Part shown: one piece after another, positions 1 through 38,981 of the stretch
Layout: each line of letters begins with the position of its first letter
Numbering within the stretch: the first letter of the stretch is position 1
Source of the DNA: a virus
IMG/VR virus record: IMGVR_UViG_3300049043_000117
Span: 1 to 64,000 of that record
Strand: one strand, 5' to 3'
Length of the DNA: 64,000 nt
Notes under the pieces: generated by a model
What the model was told of the DNA's origin: nothing
What the model saw: only the letters and a program-made list of their open reading frames with translations
Databases searched by the model: none
Program-made: the position numbers and the translations under genes

Positions 1-428
1 TGCTTCCACGTTTAGGGATGAAGGGGTTGGCTGATTGCGATGTATGGAGGCTAATTGGTCCTACCCCTTGCCCTTTGCCATTTTTCCTCCATGTTGGTGG
101 TCTATTTGCATATACCTAAGCTCCAATGTGTATTAGTTGGACACATTATCATAGAACACAGATGGCGTTTGATTTGGTTAATTTCATTGTACTCTGGTGT
201 TAACCATTTAAAATCATCATGCAAATGTAGCAAGCTCATCATCGTCCCTTCTACCTTGACTTCTCAAACCATTTGCATTTTCTAGCCATAAACCATATGG
301 AATAGGGCTTCTCCCCATTCTTCATGAACAATCTGGCTTCCTCATTGAGGGACATTAACTTCCCATTGGTCATGCCAGCGAATAAGGAGATGAGGTGACC
401 CACATGTCAAAGGCATTTGATAAATGAC

Positions 429-674
429 TTATTTGCACTTGGTACTCCTTAGTGAGGATTGAAGGATGAGGGTCTGAGCTTTTAAGGTCATCATATGTGC
501 CTTCACACTTTTGGTGAACAATATTTGTACCCCCATTTCAATCAACACAGCATTTGCATATCTAGACCACAAGACCCAATTATCATTGTTCAAGTTAATG
601 GGGTCAAGTTTTGGTGTGAGTTTCTGAGAGGTGGGTGCATGCATAAGCATAGCTTGGAGGAAACATCCCAACAC
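429..674 (-). pseudogene. Possible copia-type retrotransposon Gag fragment
   Basis: This 81-codon ORF contains a stretch reading KLDPINLNNDNWVLWSRYA, then AVLIEMGVQ. That resembles the start of plant Ty1/copia Gag polyproteins (UBN2/DUF4219 region: a 'leaving the element' pattern of asparagine-rich residues followed by W and a tyrosine). Homology is judged by eye only. No continuing reading frame, integrase or reverse transcriptase motif is visible downstream, so at best it is a decayed fragment. It could equally be a chance ORF. Confidence 0.25.
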
Positions 675-749
675 CCCTCCCAGTCCCCAAAACTATGTGG
701 CATACCGGAGAATGCAGATGAAATCAGGAGGGCCTGAATGGGGACCCCC

Positions 750-885
750 TGGATTCCAACCACCACCCTGGAGGACCACCCCGGAGGACCACCCCGGAGG
801 GCCCTGACCCTTGAGGACCACCACCCCCAGGAGGACCACTGCCACCTGGAGGACCACTGCCACCCTGGAGGACCACTGCGATGGG
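750..885. repeat. GC-rich minisatellite
   Basis: Tandem imperfect units built on GGAGGACCAC with spacers such as TGCCACCCT or CCC recur about nine times. The ORFs crossing it are low-complexity products of the repeat. It is unlike the AT-rich phage DNA in the rest of the window. Confidence 0.7.
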
Positions 886-2075
886 GCCCTGAAGTGGAAG
901 CCGTTCAGAGATGCCTGCATCTGGCTGTCAGAAAGAATGAAAGCGCAAGTGAGACATGTGGGTGTATCTAAGCTCCAGGCTTGTGAACATACAGAGCAGG
1001 TGGTAACTCGGGTGCACTAGCTTGCTCCTCTATATGTAAACTGGGGCACATACCTGTAAGAGGCTAGGGATGCAGACAGGCATGCTCCAATATACACAGG
1101 ACTTATACAATAGCATACTGGCCTAAAGTTGCTTGAGAACCGACCCTGAAAACTGCTACAGGAACTGCACAGGAAACTGCATGGGAAAGCTGCCCAGGAA
1201 ACTGTCCTAATACTGCATGGGGTTACCTTCCCCAGGTGGGACAGCTGGGTACTCAGTGTGGGTCACCGTCCTCTGAAGACCTCTCCCTTTCCCCCGAAGC
1301 CCGCTGGGTGGAGGAAGAGCCCATGGCAGAATCTGAACAGCGTCCTTTCATCCCTGTACAGTCATCCCAACAGGTGTCAGGAGAGGCCTTGAGGTATCAC
1401 TTATATCTTGTAACTACAGGCACATTTGTGCCTCCCTCTAAGTCACCATCAAAGTCGAAATCATTGTCTTCTGGGTAAGTTCGTAATTCACTAGGAGAAG
1501 TCATTAGAGCAAGCAATATAACTAAAGCCCTTAAAGGATCTATGATTGCTATAGTATCTTATGAAAGGCAATTGCCAGAAACCCGGAAAAACAACAGCAA
1601 CACAAAGGATTGATGGATCAAAATACTTTCATGTTCTTGGCTGCAAAATAAAGAAAAATATTTCTAAAATACCAGCAGCCAAAACAAAGTACTTCTGATA
1701 GATCAAAGATGAAACAAATGCAGAGTACGCTTCCGACGATGAAGAATATGGCAGCCAACAAAAGGTCAAGTGGTAGATCACAGTAAAAATAAACTTTTGA
1801 CGAGACGATCAACGATACGATCCGGATAGAAAATATTCAGCAAAAACTTAAAGCTTCTAAACCCCAACTTCACATGAAATAACAACAACCAGAAAGGTAG
1901 GTTGAAGTCTGATAAGTTTAGGATAGAGAAGAAGTCCGTCGCCGCGTAGGTCCCGCTTCAAAGTCCGTCAGATAGCAGAGAAAACGCAACCTTCTATCGC
2001 CGATACCATTCTTTCGTATGGCATCAACGCAAGCAAAATAAATACTTCATGCAATTCATATTTCAGCAATGCAAG

Positions 2076-2190
2076 CACCTACAAGCAGCGTCGAGATCCA
2101 TTAGCATAAGGGACGGACAGATTTAACGATGCCAACAAGTCACACGCAAGGACTTCACGAAGGCAAAGGAGACTTTAGATCACTGAGTCT
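2076..2190 (+). repeat. 115-bp direct repeat, copy 1
   Basis: The segment from CACCTACAAGCAGCG to TCACTGAGTCT recurs at 2233-2347 with no difference that I can see. The copies are offset by 157 bp with 42 bp of unrelated sequence between them. It may be a genuine recent duplication or an assembly artefact. Confidence 0.85.
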
Positions 2191-2232
2191 ATTACAAAGG
2201 CAAATCAAATGCTAACTATGTACATACTCACT

Positions 2233-2347
2233 CACCTACAAGCAGCGTCGAGATCCATTAGCATAAGGGACGGACAGATTTAACGATGCCAACAAGTCAC
2301 ACGCAAGGACTTCACGAAGGCAAAGGAGACTTTAGATCACTGAGTCT
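2233..2347 (+). repeat. 115-bp direct repeat, copy 2
   Basis: Second copy of the segment at 2076-2190, apparently identical. It lies just upstream of the degenerate triple repeat. Confidence 0.85.
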
Positions 2348-2564
2348 AAAGTCTTTCTGGACATCCCTGTGCCTATATGAACCTGAACTCCGTTGATCCG
2401 AAGGGATTCGACGGAATTACACGAGGATTTGACGACCTACGACAACTACGCCAGAAAACCCTCGAGATCAGCTCCGCTTGCCCGTGAGCCATACAGATAA
2501 GCCTTAATGCACTTAATTGTCCTATATATAAAAGCTGGCGTTGATTGATGCAGTGTGGAGTGTG

Positions 2565-2915
2565 CTCCACGTAGGTTGCCGACCTCTAAATACCGCCAAC
2601 TACGTCGACACACTCTGTACTGCTCCGTTTGCCCGTCAGCTTAACAACTAAGCATATAATGATGAAAGACACCTATGTGCCAAATCTGGCGTTAAATGAT
2701 GCAGTGACGAGCATGATCCACGTAGGGTTGCCGACTTGACGGAACTACGTGGATACGTGTCGACACACAAGGTATAGATCCCGCCTTCCTTGTATAAGCC
2801 TAAAATGAGGAAAGAAGCCTAGGTGTCAAATCTGGCATTTATTGGTGGAGTCTCGAGTGAGATCCACGTAGGGTTGCCGACTTGACGGAAATACGTTGCC
2901 ACGTGTCGACACACA
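2565..2915 (+). repeat. Three degenerate ~147-bp repeats
   Basis: The block TCCACGTAGGGTTGCCGAC, followed 20-30 bp later by CGTGTCGACACAC, occurs near 2568, 2717 and 2863 (the first copy has diverged most). Units also share a segment like CCTAGGTGTCAAATCTGGC. A TATA-like string (TATATATAAAAG) lies near 2523. The layout resembles promoter or intergenic repeats of plant mobile elements, but I cannot name a family. Confidence 0.55.
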
Positions 2916-3168
2916 AGACATGGATCACAAACCTTATCAGACACATGGAGCGACTTTGTGGTAGAGTTCAACGTACAGAAATCTTTCAATTGCTTCACTT
3001 TGGAAAAGCTAACGTTGACGACGAGCCGGAGACGAGGGGAACACTTGGCGTTCCCAATGGCTTCCCACATGGCCTTTCCAAGTCTCAAGTTCAGTGCGAA
3101 GACGACCTTCAGACTTCAGATTTTCATAACGATTTGAAGCTTTCTTCTTCCACCAAGTTACAAGGTTA

Positions 3169-5676: not shown

Positions 5677-6194
5677 TCATATCCATTCAGGTTTGCGTTC
5701 TGGCATACGAAGATAATTAGATGCAACCCAAGGTTTAGATGCGATATACATCTTGTAAGCAGTAAAAGTGTCAATGCTTGTCATCAAATTTATATTCATC
5801 CGGCATTGCACGAGCAAAAGGAGTTACTTCCGTAATCTTTACCTTTGGGAAACAAATAATATGCACCAAGAAGAGTATTATAACACGAATGTATGTTTAC
5901 CATATCGTAGATGTATACTCATCACACAGATTCATACCATGTTTAATCAACCAATAGGCATTATGAATACTTTCGAATGCCCATTTGAGTACATGGATGA
6001 TTCCGGAATGCACCTTTTTCAGTCGCATATGGAGTTTCATCGGACTTATGAAAGGTGCCATAATTATGATACCATTTTTAGATGCCACAATAGAAAGCAT
6101 TTGACAACACTCAAGTGGCATTTTCACAATATGTTTATCTGGGAGTACAAATTGCACTTTCAGCAGGAAATGGGTTAGTAACAAAGATATTCAT
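5677..6194 (-). CDS. Conserved phage protein of unknown function
   Basis: About 170 residues after joining frames. The N-terminus reads MNIFVTNPFPAESA, followed by PDKHIVKMPLECCQMLSI, then FRNHPCTQWAFES, HNAYWLIKHG, CDEYT and, in the C-terminal part, VTPFARAMPDEYK and KPWVASNYLR. Invariant-looking His, Cys and Glu residues (DKHIVKM, NHPC-W, DEY) suggest an enzyme. Proteins of this pattern are widespread in phages with no firmly assigned activity. Its stop lies 4 nt before the start of the membrane protein gene at 5673. Confidence 0.65.
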
Positions 6195-6205
6195 AGTATA
6201 AAAGA

Positions 6206-6774
6206 TTAAAGTTTAATCCAATTTTTCCAAGTTGGGGAACTTGATTTTACTCTTGCTCTTGCACAACTATAACTTATACTGTAGTAATTAGCAACTTCTT
6301 CTAGACCAGTAAAGTAAGTGTCCTCAATTAAATATGTTTGTTTTTTTGATTGACTTATACTTTTACCTCTAATTAAAAGAAATTGTTTATCATTTTCAAG
6401 TTCTCTTATTTTTTAAATCTTTTTTCTACAAGTTCTTTGGAGTGTTTTTTTCCAGTTAAACTTTGTCTCATTTTTTCAATTGAGTTTTCAGTTAATCTAA
6501 TTTGTCCTCCAGGAAGAATATTGTAATAGGGTTTAAGTAGTATCTATGTAATAGATTTCTCTTTCGTTTAATTCGTTCTAAATTCCTAGCAGTATCTAAA
6601 ATTTCAATAATAAAATTTTCTATTCCATACTTTCGCATAGCAGTTATGAAGTTTATATCCACTACCACGAATAGACATTTCTTTATGTTTCCTAAATCTA
6701 TAATCAATATTTTTTATAGTTTGACCTACATAAAACTCTTGAGTTTGCAAATTAGTTATTTTATAGATGAACAT
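6206..6774 (-). CDS. GIY-YIG homing endonuclease
   Basis: The N-terminus reads MFIYKITNLQTQEFYVGQT, which carries the paired motifs of the GIY-YIG family (YKI...YVG). KYGIENFIIEIL and a glutamate-containing segment (NEREIYYID after a frame correction) follow. The C-terminal half has RLTENSIEKMRQSLTGKKHS, the NUMOD3-type DNA-binding module found in homing endonucleases, and a helix-turn-helix-like tail. The expected length is about 190 residues. It lies downstream of clamp gene 45, with a hairpin and a late promoter box in between. Such free-standing endonucleases usually cut the equivalent site in endonuclease-free relatives and spread into it. Confidence 0.85.
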
Positions 6775-6777
6775 AAA

Positions 6778-6817
6778 AAGTATCCTATTACATTATTATT
6801 TATAAAATAGGATACTT
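6778..6817 (-). terminator. Hairpin between gene 45 and the GIY-YIG gene
   Basis: A perfect 12-bp inverted repeat (arms 6778-6789 and 6806-6817, AAGTATCCTATT/AATAGGATACTT) with a 16-nt loop is followed on the minus strand by a run of T. The gene 45 stop codon and a TATAAATA box both lie in the loop. It is symmetrical enough to work in either direction. Confidence 0.7.
6797..6804 (-). promoter_or_regulatory. T4-type late promoter box
   Basis: Exact TATAAATA on the minus strand, 23 bp upstream of the GIY-YIG start codon, inside the loop of the hairpin at 6778-6817. Late sigma gp55 together with the gp45 clamp recognises this sequence in T4. Confidence 0.55.
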
Positions 6818-7516
6818 AAAAATCATATCATATTGACTGTCAGGTTCTAGTGCGATACCAGTATTTGAGGTTTTTATCTTCAGATTGGAAACGAGACAGG
6901 AGTTTTTGGAGATCACAACCTCATAAGAACCAGGAAGAATCTTAATGTTCTCAACTTTGAAATTCAGAACAAAAGTACCAGTCAGTCTCACCCACAACCA
7001 GACGAATATTCATTGGAAGTATCGTTCTTCTTATCACGAACCACCAGTTTCACCACACCCGCTTCACCAACCACAGAAAGGTCAGGAACACCGATAAACT
7101 CCTAGCAGCCTTGAGGAGTTTATCCAGTTGTTGAGTATTCAGTTCAAAACAAACATCCTCAGAAGGAAGAGAGATGGATTTCTCAGGGGGAGTCACGATA
7201 CACTGCAGGATCTGCAAAGAAATACTTGGATCGTGCACTTACCTTCACTGATTCCCACATAACTATCGTTAGCGAATTTCAGTTGAGGGTTCTGATAGAG
7301 GGACATTGCATTCAGGAACTGATTCAGATCGTAAATACCGAAGTCGCGTTCAAATTCCTCTTCAACTTCTACTTCTGCAAGAATATTCTTCATCACAGAG
7401 ATAGTACGAAGTTTATTACCTTGCTTGAAAAGAATAGACTGGTTGATACCAGAGAAGTTCTTGAGAAGAGAAAGAGTTTTTTCAGAGAGTTTCATAGATG
7501 TATCTTTAAGTTTCAT
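6800..7516 (-). CDS. gp45: Sliding clamp (T4 gp45)
   Basis: DNA polymerase processivity clamp and activator of late transcription. The start MKLKDTSMKLSEKTLSLLKN, then GINQSILFKQGNKLRTIS, AEVEVEEEFERDFGIYDLN and FLNAMSLYQNP are the gp45 pattern. The C-terminal part is PGSYEVVISKNS and ends DSQYDMIFKYPIL. The span codes for about 238 residues (T4: 228). Indels near 7230, 7110 and 7000 break the frame. The ATG at 7516 fits better than an upstream TTG. Confidence 0.9.
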
Positions 7517-13591: not shown

Positions 13592-13599
13592 TATTTATA
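13592..13599 (-). promoter_or_regulatory. T4-type late promoter box
   Basis: Exact TATAAATA, 20 bp upstream of the start at 13572 and fused to the T-run of the terminator at 13598-13621. Confidence 0.65.
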
Positions 13600-13621: not shown

Positions 13622-16006
13622 ATGCAACGAGTTCAATAAACTCTCCAAGAACTTTCTTGTTCATCTTTTTACTCTTCAGTGACTTAGCAAACGCAGATCG
13701 GATCTGAGTTTTACTTGCATCATCGGAAACTTCAAACTCTGCATCAGTGGAAAGTGCAGAACCAGAAAGTCCAAAGTATACATGATATCCAGATTTCTTG
13801 ATTGCAAAGGATTTGTTCTTGCGCCAATCATCCATGAGTTGATTGTACTCTTTGTTCTGTTGATAACGACCAGTAGAGTAATCTGCAGTGTCGTAATAAC
13901 GACGAATGAAGTTTCCTGCATCCCGACCTTCAAGAACACGAATGCCAATAAAGTTCACATCAGTAAACTTATCTCGCAGATGACGCAGGAGAACATCAGT
14001 GAACGCAGTAAACTCACCATCAAGTTTGTAAGTGCAACCCAGTTTACGATCACGAAGAATGGTATTGTTTCCAACCGCATTCAATCCAATATACACTTCT
14101 TCAGTGTCATAGTTAAAACGACCTTTGAATTCTTTATGGAACTTCAGAGGTGCAGCTTCACCATCAGTCAGAACCACACACTGAACTTTCTGGAGTTTGT
14201 TCTCCCGTTGGAACTGGGGAAGAATCTGATGAAGAGTGATCAGTGCCTCGTTCAAAGGAGTACCCGAGAGAGACAGACGAGAGGGATGAGTGTATTCAGG
14301 GGCATTGGTATAAGAATACTTAAACTCTTTCGCTAACCTGAAAATGTTAATCATCTGTTCCTCAAGAACACGATTGTTGACTTTACTGGTAAACAGGTTC
14401 ATCAAAGCAAAATCTTCTTCAATATGAAGGAATCCATGTTTTTTCTCATAGTGAGGAGTCAGAGGTTTTTGGCGATGGTTTTCATCATACTCATAACGAC
14501 GCCACTCATTAGTGAAAGCATAAACCTCAAAAGGAATCGTAACTTTCTTACAGAACCACATCAGGTTGAAGAGTTGTTTGAGAGTATCCAACATCACATT
14601 GAGTCATTGAACCAGACCAGTCAAGAACAAACACCAGACCATGATTCTTACCATTTGCAAGAGTCGTTACCTTACGGAAAAGATCTTCATTGTACTTATA
14701 TGAGTGAAGTTTAGAACAATCCAACACACCAGTACGAGCTCGTGGTCGCACGAGCATAAGAGTCCGCCAGCTTTTTGCATTCAAATTCTTTAACCAGATA
14801 GTTGACTTCTTTTTGTGCAGAACGCTTAAACTCACGATACTCTTTATCTACCATACCAAAGAGATGTTCTTTAGGATTGGGGTATTCCAGATATTCAAGT
14901 TTTTGAATCGTCGCATTCCACCAGTCATTAATATCTTTATGAACCTCAGAGTTTGATGCAATGATCGTATTAAGATTCAGTTTGGGAAGTTCCAAGTAGA
15001 TATTTTCATACCCATTATTACTCACAAGATCCCGAATCGCTTCCTCAAGATTATCAGCGGTTTTGACCTCAGGTTCTGCAGATTCTCCACCAAGATTTGA
15101 ACTAGCGTTAGTGGGTTTATCGGACTTGTCTTCCGATTGACCATCAGAGGACGCCTGGCCACCCTCTCCAGAAATCTCTAGGTCATTCTCCTGAGAAGGA
15201 ATTGATTCCTCTTGAGTGGTCTCAGAACCACTACCAGGAGCGGATTGGGCATCATCAAACGATTCAATCTTGGTTTCTTCTTTCTGACTCCTCTTGCAAT
15301 ACTCATAGAGTTTGACTGCGACTGCAATCGCATCATCAAAAGTTTCTGCATCTGCGATCATGTTGATGATCTCCATCTCCTCACCCCGTTCAATGGGGAT
15401 CTGAGTGAATCCACCGATCTTGAACCACAGGTTAGCTGGGTCAGCAAGATTGTAGGTAGAGAGATCATCATCCTTGATCTGGAAAAAATCATCCTCATGC
15501 AGTTCCTTATAACCCGCAAAGAAAGACTTGTTCAAACCTGCATAACGACGCTTCATCATCTTCTCAATACGAGCGTCTTCCGTCACATTCACAAATTGCT
15601 GAGGAATGGTGAACTTCTTACTCCAATCCTCATTAGGAGTGTAGAGAGCGTGACCCACCTCATGACCAACCAACATGTCGTACACTGCATTGGAAGCCTT
15701 CTCCCACATGGGAAGAGTCAACACTCGGGTATCCACATTGAAACATGCGGTCGGCACATGTTTGTGTTCCACCACAAGGTCTTCAGTTGCGAGAAGACGA
15801 GCAAGTTGACCTTTGACTTCGTGATTAACAGGCATGAGTTTTGTTTCGTATGCAGCCATAATACGACGAAACCGCCCATTGGAGCGGTTCATGTGACGCT
15901 TTTTGAACTCGGACCAGTGCGTGCTTTCGCCTGACGCAGTGCTCTGCGGTTTAAGTTTTCTTTTCTGGGGTTTTCCAGAATTGTGTTGCCAGTTTGGAGT
16001 GTTCAT
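13620..16006 (-). CDS. VWA-domain protein with an HExxH motif (MoxR partner)
   Basis: About 795 residues. The N-terminal half carries VGHEVGHALYT, a metallopeptidase-type HExxH near residue 115, followed by a glutamate-bearing VTEDARIEKMMKRRYAG. A Ser/Glu/Gly-rich linker runs from about 255 to 320. The C-terminal half has FVLDWSGSM, a MIDAS DxSxS motif, then SLSGTPLNEAL and VVLTDGEAAP, giving a complete-looking von Willebrand A fold. Cyanophage annotations sometimes call it a peptidase. VWA proteins of this sort (CobT, CbbO and NorD types) work with MoxR ATPases such as the one at 7997-9099. Indels lie near 14,720 and 14,600. The start overlaps the gene 46 stop (ATGA). Confidence 0.85.
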
Positions 16007-38978: not shown

Positions 38979-38981
38979 ATA
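38974..38981 (-). promoter_or_regulatory. T4-type late promoter box
   Basis: Exact TATAAATA, 28 bp upstream of the gene 13 start, overlapping the 5' arm of the hairpin at 38947-38978. Confidence 0.6.

Follow-up and report, generated by a model that had tools for sequence, protein, structure and literature searches.

Locus and gene order

The window, the whole stretch of 64,000 nucleotides that was analysed, is part of a virus record of 121,674 bases. Judging by its genes, the source of the window is a T4-like cyanophage, a virus of marine cyanobacteria; the product of gene 45 (gp45) matches T4-like cyanophages and has its best match among isolates in Synechococcus phage S-SCSM2R (80%). The order on the minus strand of the window is gp45, a hairpin, the gene of a GIY-YIG endonuclease, the next gene and gp44. 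The features of the locus are as follows:

6827–7495, minus strand: gene 45, encoding the sliding clamp; its frame is broken by single-base indels and its tail is EPD-S(AGT)-Q, as in the relatives carrying the endonuclease (tblastn with S-SCSM2R gp45; 91% nucleotide identity to L072; tail codons)
6806–6817, minus strand: 5′ arm of the hairpin, present in the gp45 read-through RNA only (inverted repeat; covariation over 11 sequences)
6797–6804, minus strand: late promoter box TATAAATA, located in the loop at a distance of 30 nt from the ATG (sequence; all 13 relatives have [TC]ATAAATA at this place)
6778–6789, minus strand: 3′ arm of the hairpin, holding the likely Shine-Dalgarno sequence (inverted repeat; folding; covariation; accessibility)
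6783–6786, minus strand: AGGA, the likely Shine-Dalgarno sequence, 8 nt upstream of the ATG; in the read-through RNA it is predicted to be fully paired (sequence; predicted accessibility)
6791, minus strand: predicted late transcription start (from the box position and the T4 rule of a box at −13 to −6)
6206–6774, minus strand: gene of a putative GIY-YIG (Seg-like) homing endonuclease, spread over three frames (tblastn with the L004 protein)
5897–6193, minus strand: start of the next gene (MNIFVT...), directly behind gp45 in several relatives with an empty site (sequence comparison)

Indels are frequent in the contig. Of its core genes, gp47, gp20, gp23, gp17 and gp46 are matched in two to four pieces lying in different frames, unlike uvsW and cobS, which are matched in one piece each. 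The window copy of the endonuclease is frame-broken, yet it matches the protein of the relative L004 over its length in the tblastn search. The endonucleases of the relatives consist of 188–189 amino acids; the L004 protein matches PF01541 at 7.8e-9 and the homing endonuclease family phrog_314 at 8.5e-30, and PF01541 is also present in the L016 protein. At the far end of the contig, window positions 1–3075 have a G+C content of up to 53% and contain tandem repeats, and no match to phage records lies before position 3076 among the best five matches listed. This part is possibly a foreign or chimeric contig end.

The hairpin and the late promoter box

The preliminary description of this DNA reported a perfect 12-bp hairpin with a late promoter in its loop, and the analysis confirms it: the two arms are perfect inverted repeats of 12 bp separated by a gap of 16 nt, the box TATAAATA lies within this gap on the minus strand, and the ATG of the endonuclease is found at position 6774. 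The minus strand folds with an energy of −14.2 kcal/mol (shuffle mean, −5.5 kcal/mol), a stability that none of 200 shuffles equals, while an RNA begun at the late box has no such structure (z 0.45). The box was also compared with a set of 65 NATAAATA boxes, 27 from the window and 38 from phage Syn9. It has the top promoter-spanning stem score of the set, equalled by 0 of 200 shuffles, and the boxes of Syn9 show weaker promoter-spanning repeats only. The search of Rfam gave nothing for positions 6600–7000 at E values up to 1 and nothing for the whole window at the gathering thresholds.

Conservation and covariation in relatives carrying the endonuclease

The protein search for relatives of the endonuclease in IMG/VR gave 64 loci. 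Thirteen contigs, L004–L016, are close relatives, 79–85% identical over the tested part; the contig of a fourteenth, L052, ends before the leader. All 13 possess the hairpin, preceded by gp45, and a [TC]ATAAATA box lying 29–30 nt upstream of the ATG; the stems were rescored for nine of them. Box and stem occur together in every one of these close relatives. A degenerate pattern of the whole hairpin found 14 contigs in the viral collection, namely the 13 endonuclease carriers and L233, whose contig ends inside the hairpin, just after gp45.

Since L006–L009 share one common leader, the 13 relatives provide 10 distinct leaders, which were aligned with the window (11 rows, 40 columns). RNAalifold predicts for these rows a stem of 16 bp with a loop of 8 nt, on which 97.5% of the cells pair, the remaining mispairs being found in two rows at pair 2–39, in one row at pair 14–27 and in the window itself at pair 13–28. 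Five of the 16 stem pairs have changed on both sides: from G-C to C-G, from C-G to U-A (twice), from A-U to U-A and, at the top, from U-A to C-G; G-U pairs occur at two stem positions. The covariation score of 0.165 was reached by none of 500 shuffles; structures slid along the alignment score 0.069 at most, a comparison in which the RNAalifold structure is favoured, being derived from the same 11 rows.

The end of gene 45

The preliminary description also placed the stop codon of gene 45 in the loop. A mechanical open reading frame (6800–6997) does end there, at the TAA in positions 6802–6800, but this is probably not the true stop. Compared with its nearest relative L072, the window gp45 shows 91% nucleotide identity over 680 columns with seven single-base gaps, while four comparisons of relatives with each other gave 0, 2, 0 and 5 gaps. 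In all 13 carrier relatives, gp45 stops 47–49 nt before the ATG of the endonuclease, upstream of the stem. Because of the several single-base indels in the window gp45 and the position of the stop in the relatives, the stop seen in the loop is probably an artefact of indels in the window contig, and a true stop of gene 45 in the loop was rejected.

Relatives without the endonuclease and signs of mobility

The comparison with endonuclease-free relatives, proposed in the preliminary description, was carried out on two sets, each of 80 loci and partly sharing contigs, in which the sequence following gp45 was read. In the first set, 79 of the 80 loci have no late box near the end of gp45, the exception being L085. 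In the second set, 77 of the 80 loci were readable and 75 have no late box (one locus, L170, holds only 6 nt after gp45); the exceptions are L148, on the same contig as L006, which has the element, and L185, which has a box. Behind gp45 in L085 and L185 lies a different gene, that of L185 matching Endo VII families. The hairpin was not seen behind gp45 at loci without the GIY-YIG endonuclease in either set, and so it goes with the endonuclease. As far as these sequences indicate, it belongs to the mobile cassette and is not a feature of gene 45. The view that the element serves the endonuclease is supported.

In many of the empty loci gp45 leads directly into the next gene, with stop and start codons often overlapping or adjacent (e.g., TGATGAACATC). 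The end of gp45 itself was compared in 175 loci, three of which were unreadable. In all 14 rows of carriers (13 contigs, one of them represented twice) the tail reads EPD, then Ser encoded as AGT, then Gln, Lys or Met, whereas the other 158 gp45 rows have mostly TCN followed by Thr, and AGT with CAG, AAG or GAG occurs in four of them. The carrier L016 and the empty locus L078 are 94.5% identical over 600 nt, with 48% identity in the tail. The window gp45, which is nearest to those of non-carriers, also has such a tail, GAC AGT CAA. Carrier and empty alleles are therefore found at one site, with the flank altered in carriers, and the tail pattern is consistent with an insertion in which the target was replaced or recoded, as would be expected of a homing endonuclease. 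In L096 and L208, which are one contig, gp45 ends in EPDSQLIELE with AGT CAG and is followed by gp44, no GIY-YIG gene lying between; it is possibly a site that has lost its endonuclease.

Comparison with known systems

Hairpins of this kind are known from T4. Edgell, Gibb and Belfort state in a review (PMC2988022) that the intron-encoded I-TevI is controlled by a hairpin and a late start, and they give similar arrangements for I-TevII, I-TevIII, SegB and MobE of Aeromonas phage Aeh1. For gene e, PMC3014915 describes late promoters from which the RNA starts too far downstream to include the 5′ part of an inhibitory stem, and it lists soc alongside. The box NATAAATA is given in PMC2984593, a review of cyanophages, as a late promoter identified in S-PM2, and cyanomyoviruses are described there as being without motA. 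The same kind of script, applied to T4 sequences as positive controls, places the late box of segB at −30 and that of I-TevI at −31, in both cases in a hairpin reaching the start region; in the window and the 10 distinct leaders of its relatives, NATAAATA stands at −29 or −30. No late box was found by the same kind of script for T4 mobE and segG.

The closest likeness is to T4 SegB, which like the window gene is a free-standing GIY-YIG endonuclease with a hairpin over the start region and a late RNA without the 5′ arm, as described in the section of PMC2988022 consulted. In segB, however, the 5′ arm includes the box CATAAATA and the stem extends to the AUG. In the window, the box is placed at the top of the stem and in the loop, and the whole 12-bp 5′ arm comes before it. 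The neighbours differ as well, being tRNA genes for SegB and gp45 for the window endonuclease. The L004 protein has its best matches among named phages at about 28–31% identity, several of them Seg-like. The hairpin of T4 I-TevI, located in the td intron, pairs the ribosome-binding site, which a late start frees, as proposed here for the window, but I-TevI is intron-encoded and has an operator for autorepression (PMC2988022, in part); no intron was seen at the window locus. MobE of Aeh1 is free-standing and also has its ribosome-binding site in a hairpin (same source, in part); compared by description, it differs in being of the HNH family and in its location in the region of the ribonucleotide reductase genes. 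T4 genes e (lysozyme) and soc, likewise compared by their description in part of PMC3014915, are not mobile. F-CphI of S-PM2 (PMC6083498) is a homing endonuclease of a T4-like cyanophage, like the product of the window gene. It differs in its Endo VII-type catalytic motif and in being linked to psbA. In the accessible text of the literature searched, no such hairpin was found described for a cyanophage. The hairpin and late box of the window are most likely a further case of the T4-type hairpin-controlled late homing endonucleases (I-TevI, SegB, MobE).

Proposed translational delay switch

Sequence, modelled folding and the analogy with T4 make it highly probable that the hairpin and its internal late box act as a translational delay switch of a mobile free-standing GIY-YIG endonuclease. 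The endonuclease gene lies directly behind gene 45 and ahead of the following replication-cluster gene in a T4-like cyanophage. An RNA reading through from gp45 would hold both arms, so that the hairpin would fold and pair the Shine-Dalgarno sequence of the endonuclease, and in some relatives the AUG too; the endonuclease would then remain untranslated, and the downstream genes would stay transcribed despite the folded hairpin. In late infection, the phage late-promoter machinery would initiate at TATAAATA in the loop. The late RNA would begin approximately at the foot of the loop, without the 5′ arm, and so would form no hairpin and be translated. The argument of the preliminary description that a late transcript would lack the 5′ arm and read-through RNA would form the whole hairpin agrees well with the positions of the arms and the box.

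In T4 late promoters, the box occupies positions −13 to −6 relative to +1, and the late leader was modelled as an RNA starting 13 nt after the start of the box. Over the 11 rows, positions −15 to −5 have a mean unpaired probability of 0.00–0.02 in the read-through RNA and of 0.22–0.63 in the late RNA; in the window itself it rises from 0.01 in the long RNA to 0.58 in the short one. The pairing of the likely ribosome-binding site in the long RNA is predicted, and the covariation agrees with it.

Several details count against this switch. The AGGA of the Shine-Dalgarno sequence is short, and it is weakened in L006–L009 and L016 by changes that keep the stem paired. The pairing is thus better conserved than the Shine-Dalgarno sequence, and it seems that selection holds the pairing more than AGGA. 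The late leader of L016 is fairly structured, having the value of 0.22, and the accessibility of the AUG drops in the late RNA, from 0.34 to 0.23 in the window and from 0.16 to 0.08 in L016. Finally, gp45 of the relatives stops only a few nucleotides before the stem, and a terminating ribosome might therefore open the 5′ arm.

Alternative explanations

The preliminary description had read the hairpin as terminator and promoter in one, ending the gp45 transcripts while the late box starts that of the endonuclease. A stable stem does stand beside a run of four or five T in the window and in seven of the 10 distinct leaders of the relatives, and a lax terminator scan calls L004, L013 and L014, three of the four relatives scanned from these 10 leaders, terminator-like. 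The lax scan is negative for L006, and the window went uncalled in a scan whose loop limit of 8 excludes a loop of 16 nt. The T residues that the lax scan counts belong partly to the first codons of the endonuclease itself. The 12-bp stem contains only two or three G-C pairs (three in the window), three T followed by the ATG stand behind it in the window, and the T-run is missing in L005, L010 and L014 (ATAT or ATTT; three of the 10 distinct leaders). Moreover, the relatives without the endonuclease show no such hairpin behind gp45 in the two sets of loci. As gp45 runs straight into the next gene in many empty loci, an efficient terminator would cut the replication cluster. The likely ribosome-binding site, too, is within the 3′ arm, an arrangement shared with T4 segB and I-TevI. 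Termination of the clamp transcript is consequently an unlikely function; as the main role it was rejected, since the T-run is not kept and the hairpin is absent where the endonuclease is missing, with the calls of the lax scan standing as counter-evidence.

The repeat might instead be a DNA operator over the late promoter, bound by the endonuclease for self-repression. I-TevI binds such an operator overlapping its late promoter (PMC2988022, in part), and the inverted repeat of the window overlaps the late box. However, the operator of I-TevI is described in the same part of that source as resembling its homing site and not as a long perfect palindrome, and the pairing-preserving changes on both arms, together with G-U pairs at two positions, fit pairing in RNA better. 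An operator is thus improbable as the explanation of the repeat, but it could coexist with the translational switch.

Gating by ribosomes is a further alternative. Ribosomes completing gp45 near the stem would open it, and the endonuclease would be made in proportion to the translation of the clamp. The distance of the gp45 stop from the ATG, 47–49 nt in 13 of 13 relatives, puts it near the foot of the 5′ arm, as such coupling would need, but it gives no clear role to the late box and its constant spacing within the stem-loop, and the T4 counterparts are interpreted as delay devices in the part of PMC2988022 concerned; we consider coupling very unlikely. A chance inverted repeat in A+T-rich DNA, which the 29.6% G+C of window positions 6501–7000 might suggest, is practically discounted and was rejected on the folding shuffles (0 of 200 as stable), the paired changes and covariation, the promoter-spanning stem score and the presence of the hairpin in 13 of 13 relatives.

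Late boxes of other endonucleases and of the window

A second free-standing family, Endo VII-like (L085, L185, L246–L273), was observed behind gp45 and other genes; the endonuclease of L185 matches phrog_1035 and phrog_3322. The late box lies exactly at −32 in 28 of its 29 loci. The best inverted repeat covers the AUG in 18 of the 29 and is mispaired or absent in others, with a mispair in the core of the stem in several rows (these repeats being scored without a shuffle control). With the AUG covered in only 18 loci and mispairs in the core, no hairpin is claimed for this family.

More distant GIY-YIG relatives comprise 51 loci, one of them too short to read, with 26 distinct leaders. A late box lies within 45 nt of the ATG in eight of these leaders, and the start-spanning stem beats the shuffles (≤0.02) in four of the eight (L021, L033, L054 and L060); in L062, L064, L051 and L038 it does not beat them at 0.02. 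In L054–L059, L060, L062 and L021–L022, the late box, at −30 to −32, was observed to lie within a hairpin or to overlap one.

Other combinations of late boxes with repeats were noticed. On the minus strand of the window at 38981–38940, a hairpin has a T-run behind it and a 5′ arm that overlaps with the late box TATAAATACC; this place is a better candidate for a combined terminator and promoter. Late boxes at 13599 and 28106 (minus strand) overlap short inverted repeats (AAATACTT/AAGTATTT and CTCTAT/ATAGAG, respectively). In L244 at 13906–13931 (about position 113,914 of Syn9), an 8-bp hairpin with ATAAATA in its loop is located between the tail tube and portal genes.

Implications

In T4, gp45 is a clamp taking part in late transcription. 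A joint reading of the two endonuclease families is offered tentatively, as having somewhat less than an even chance of being right. At least two unrelated free-standing families, GIY-YIG and Endo VII-like, may each have entered T4-like cyanophages at a site behind the clamp gene, as a self-contained cassette with its own late box at a fixed distance (−29/−30 and −32, respectively) and a start-covering hairpin, so that the late switch would travel along with the gene. The GIY-YIG cassette would bring with it a recoded gp45 tail, which may protect carriers from cutting themselves. Given the part of gp45 in T4 late transcription, the gene invaded by the cassette would then supply the protein that switches the cassette on.

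The analysis of the locus corrects a tempting misreading, a terminator with an overlapping stop codon, which was founded on an indel-rich contig. The paired changes and the comparison of carriers with non-carriers point to the device as a part of the mobile gene and not of the neighbouring replication gene. It seems that the translational delay device of T4 and of an Aeromonas phage would thereby be extended to viruses of marine cyanobacteria.
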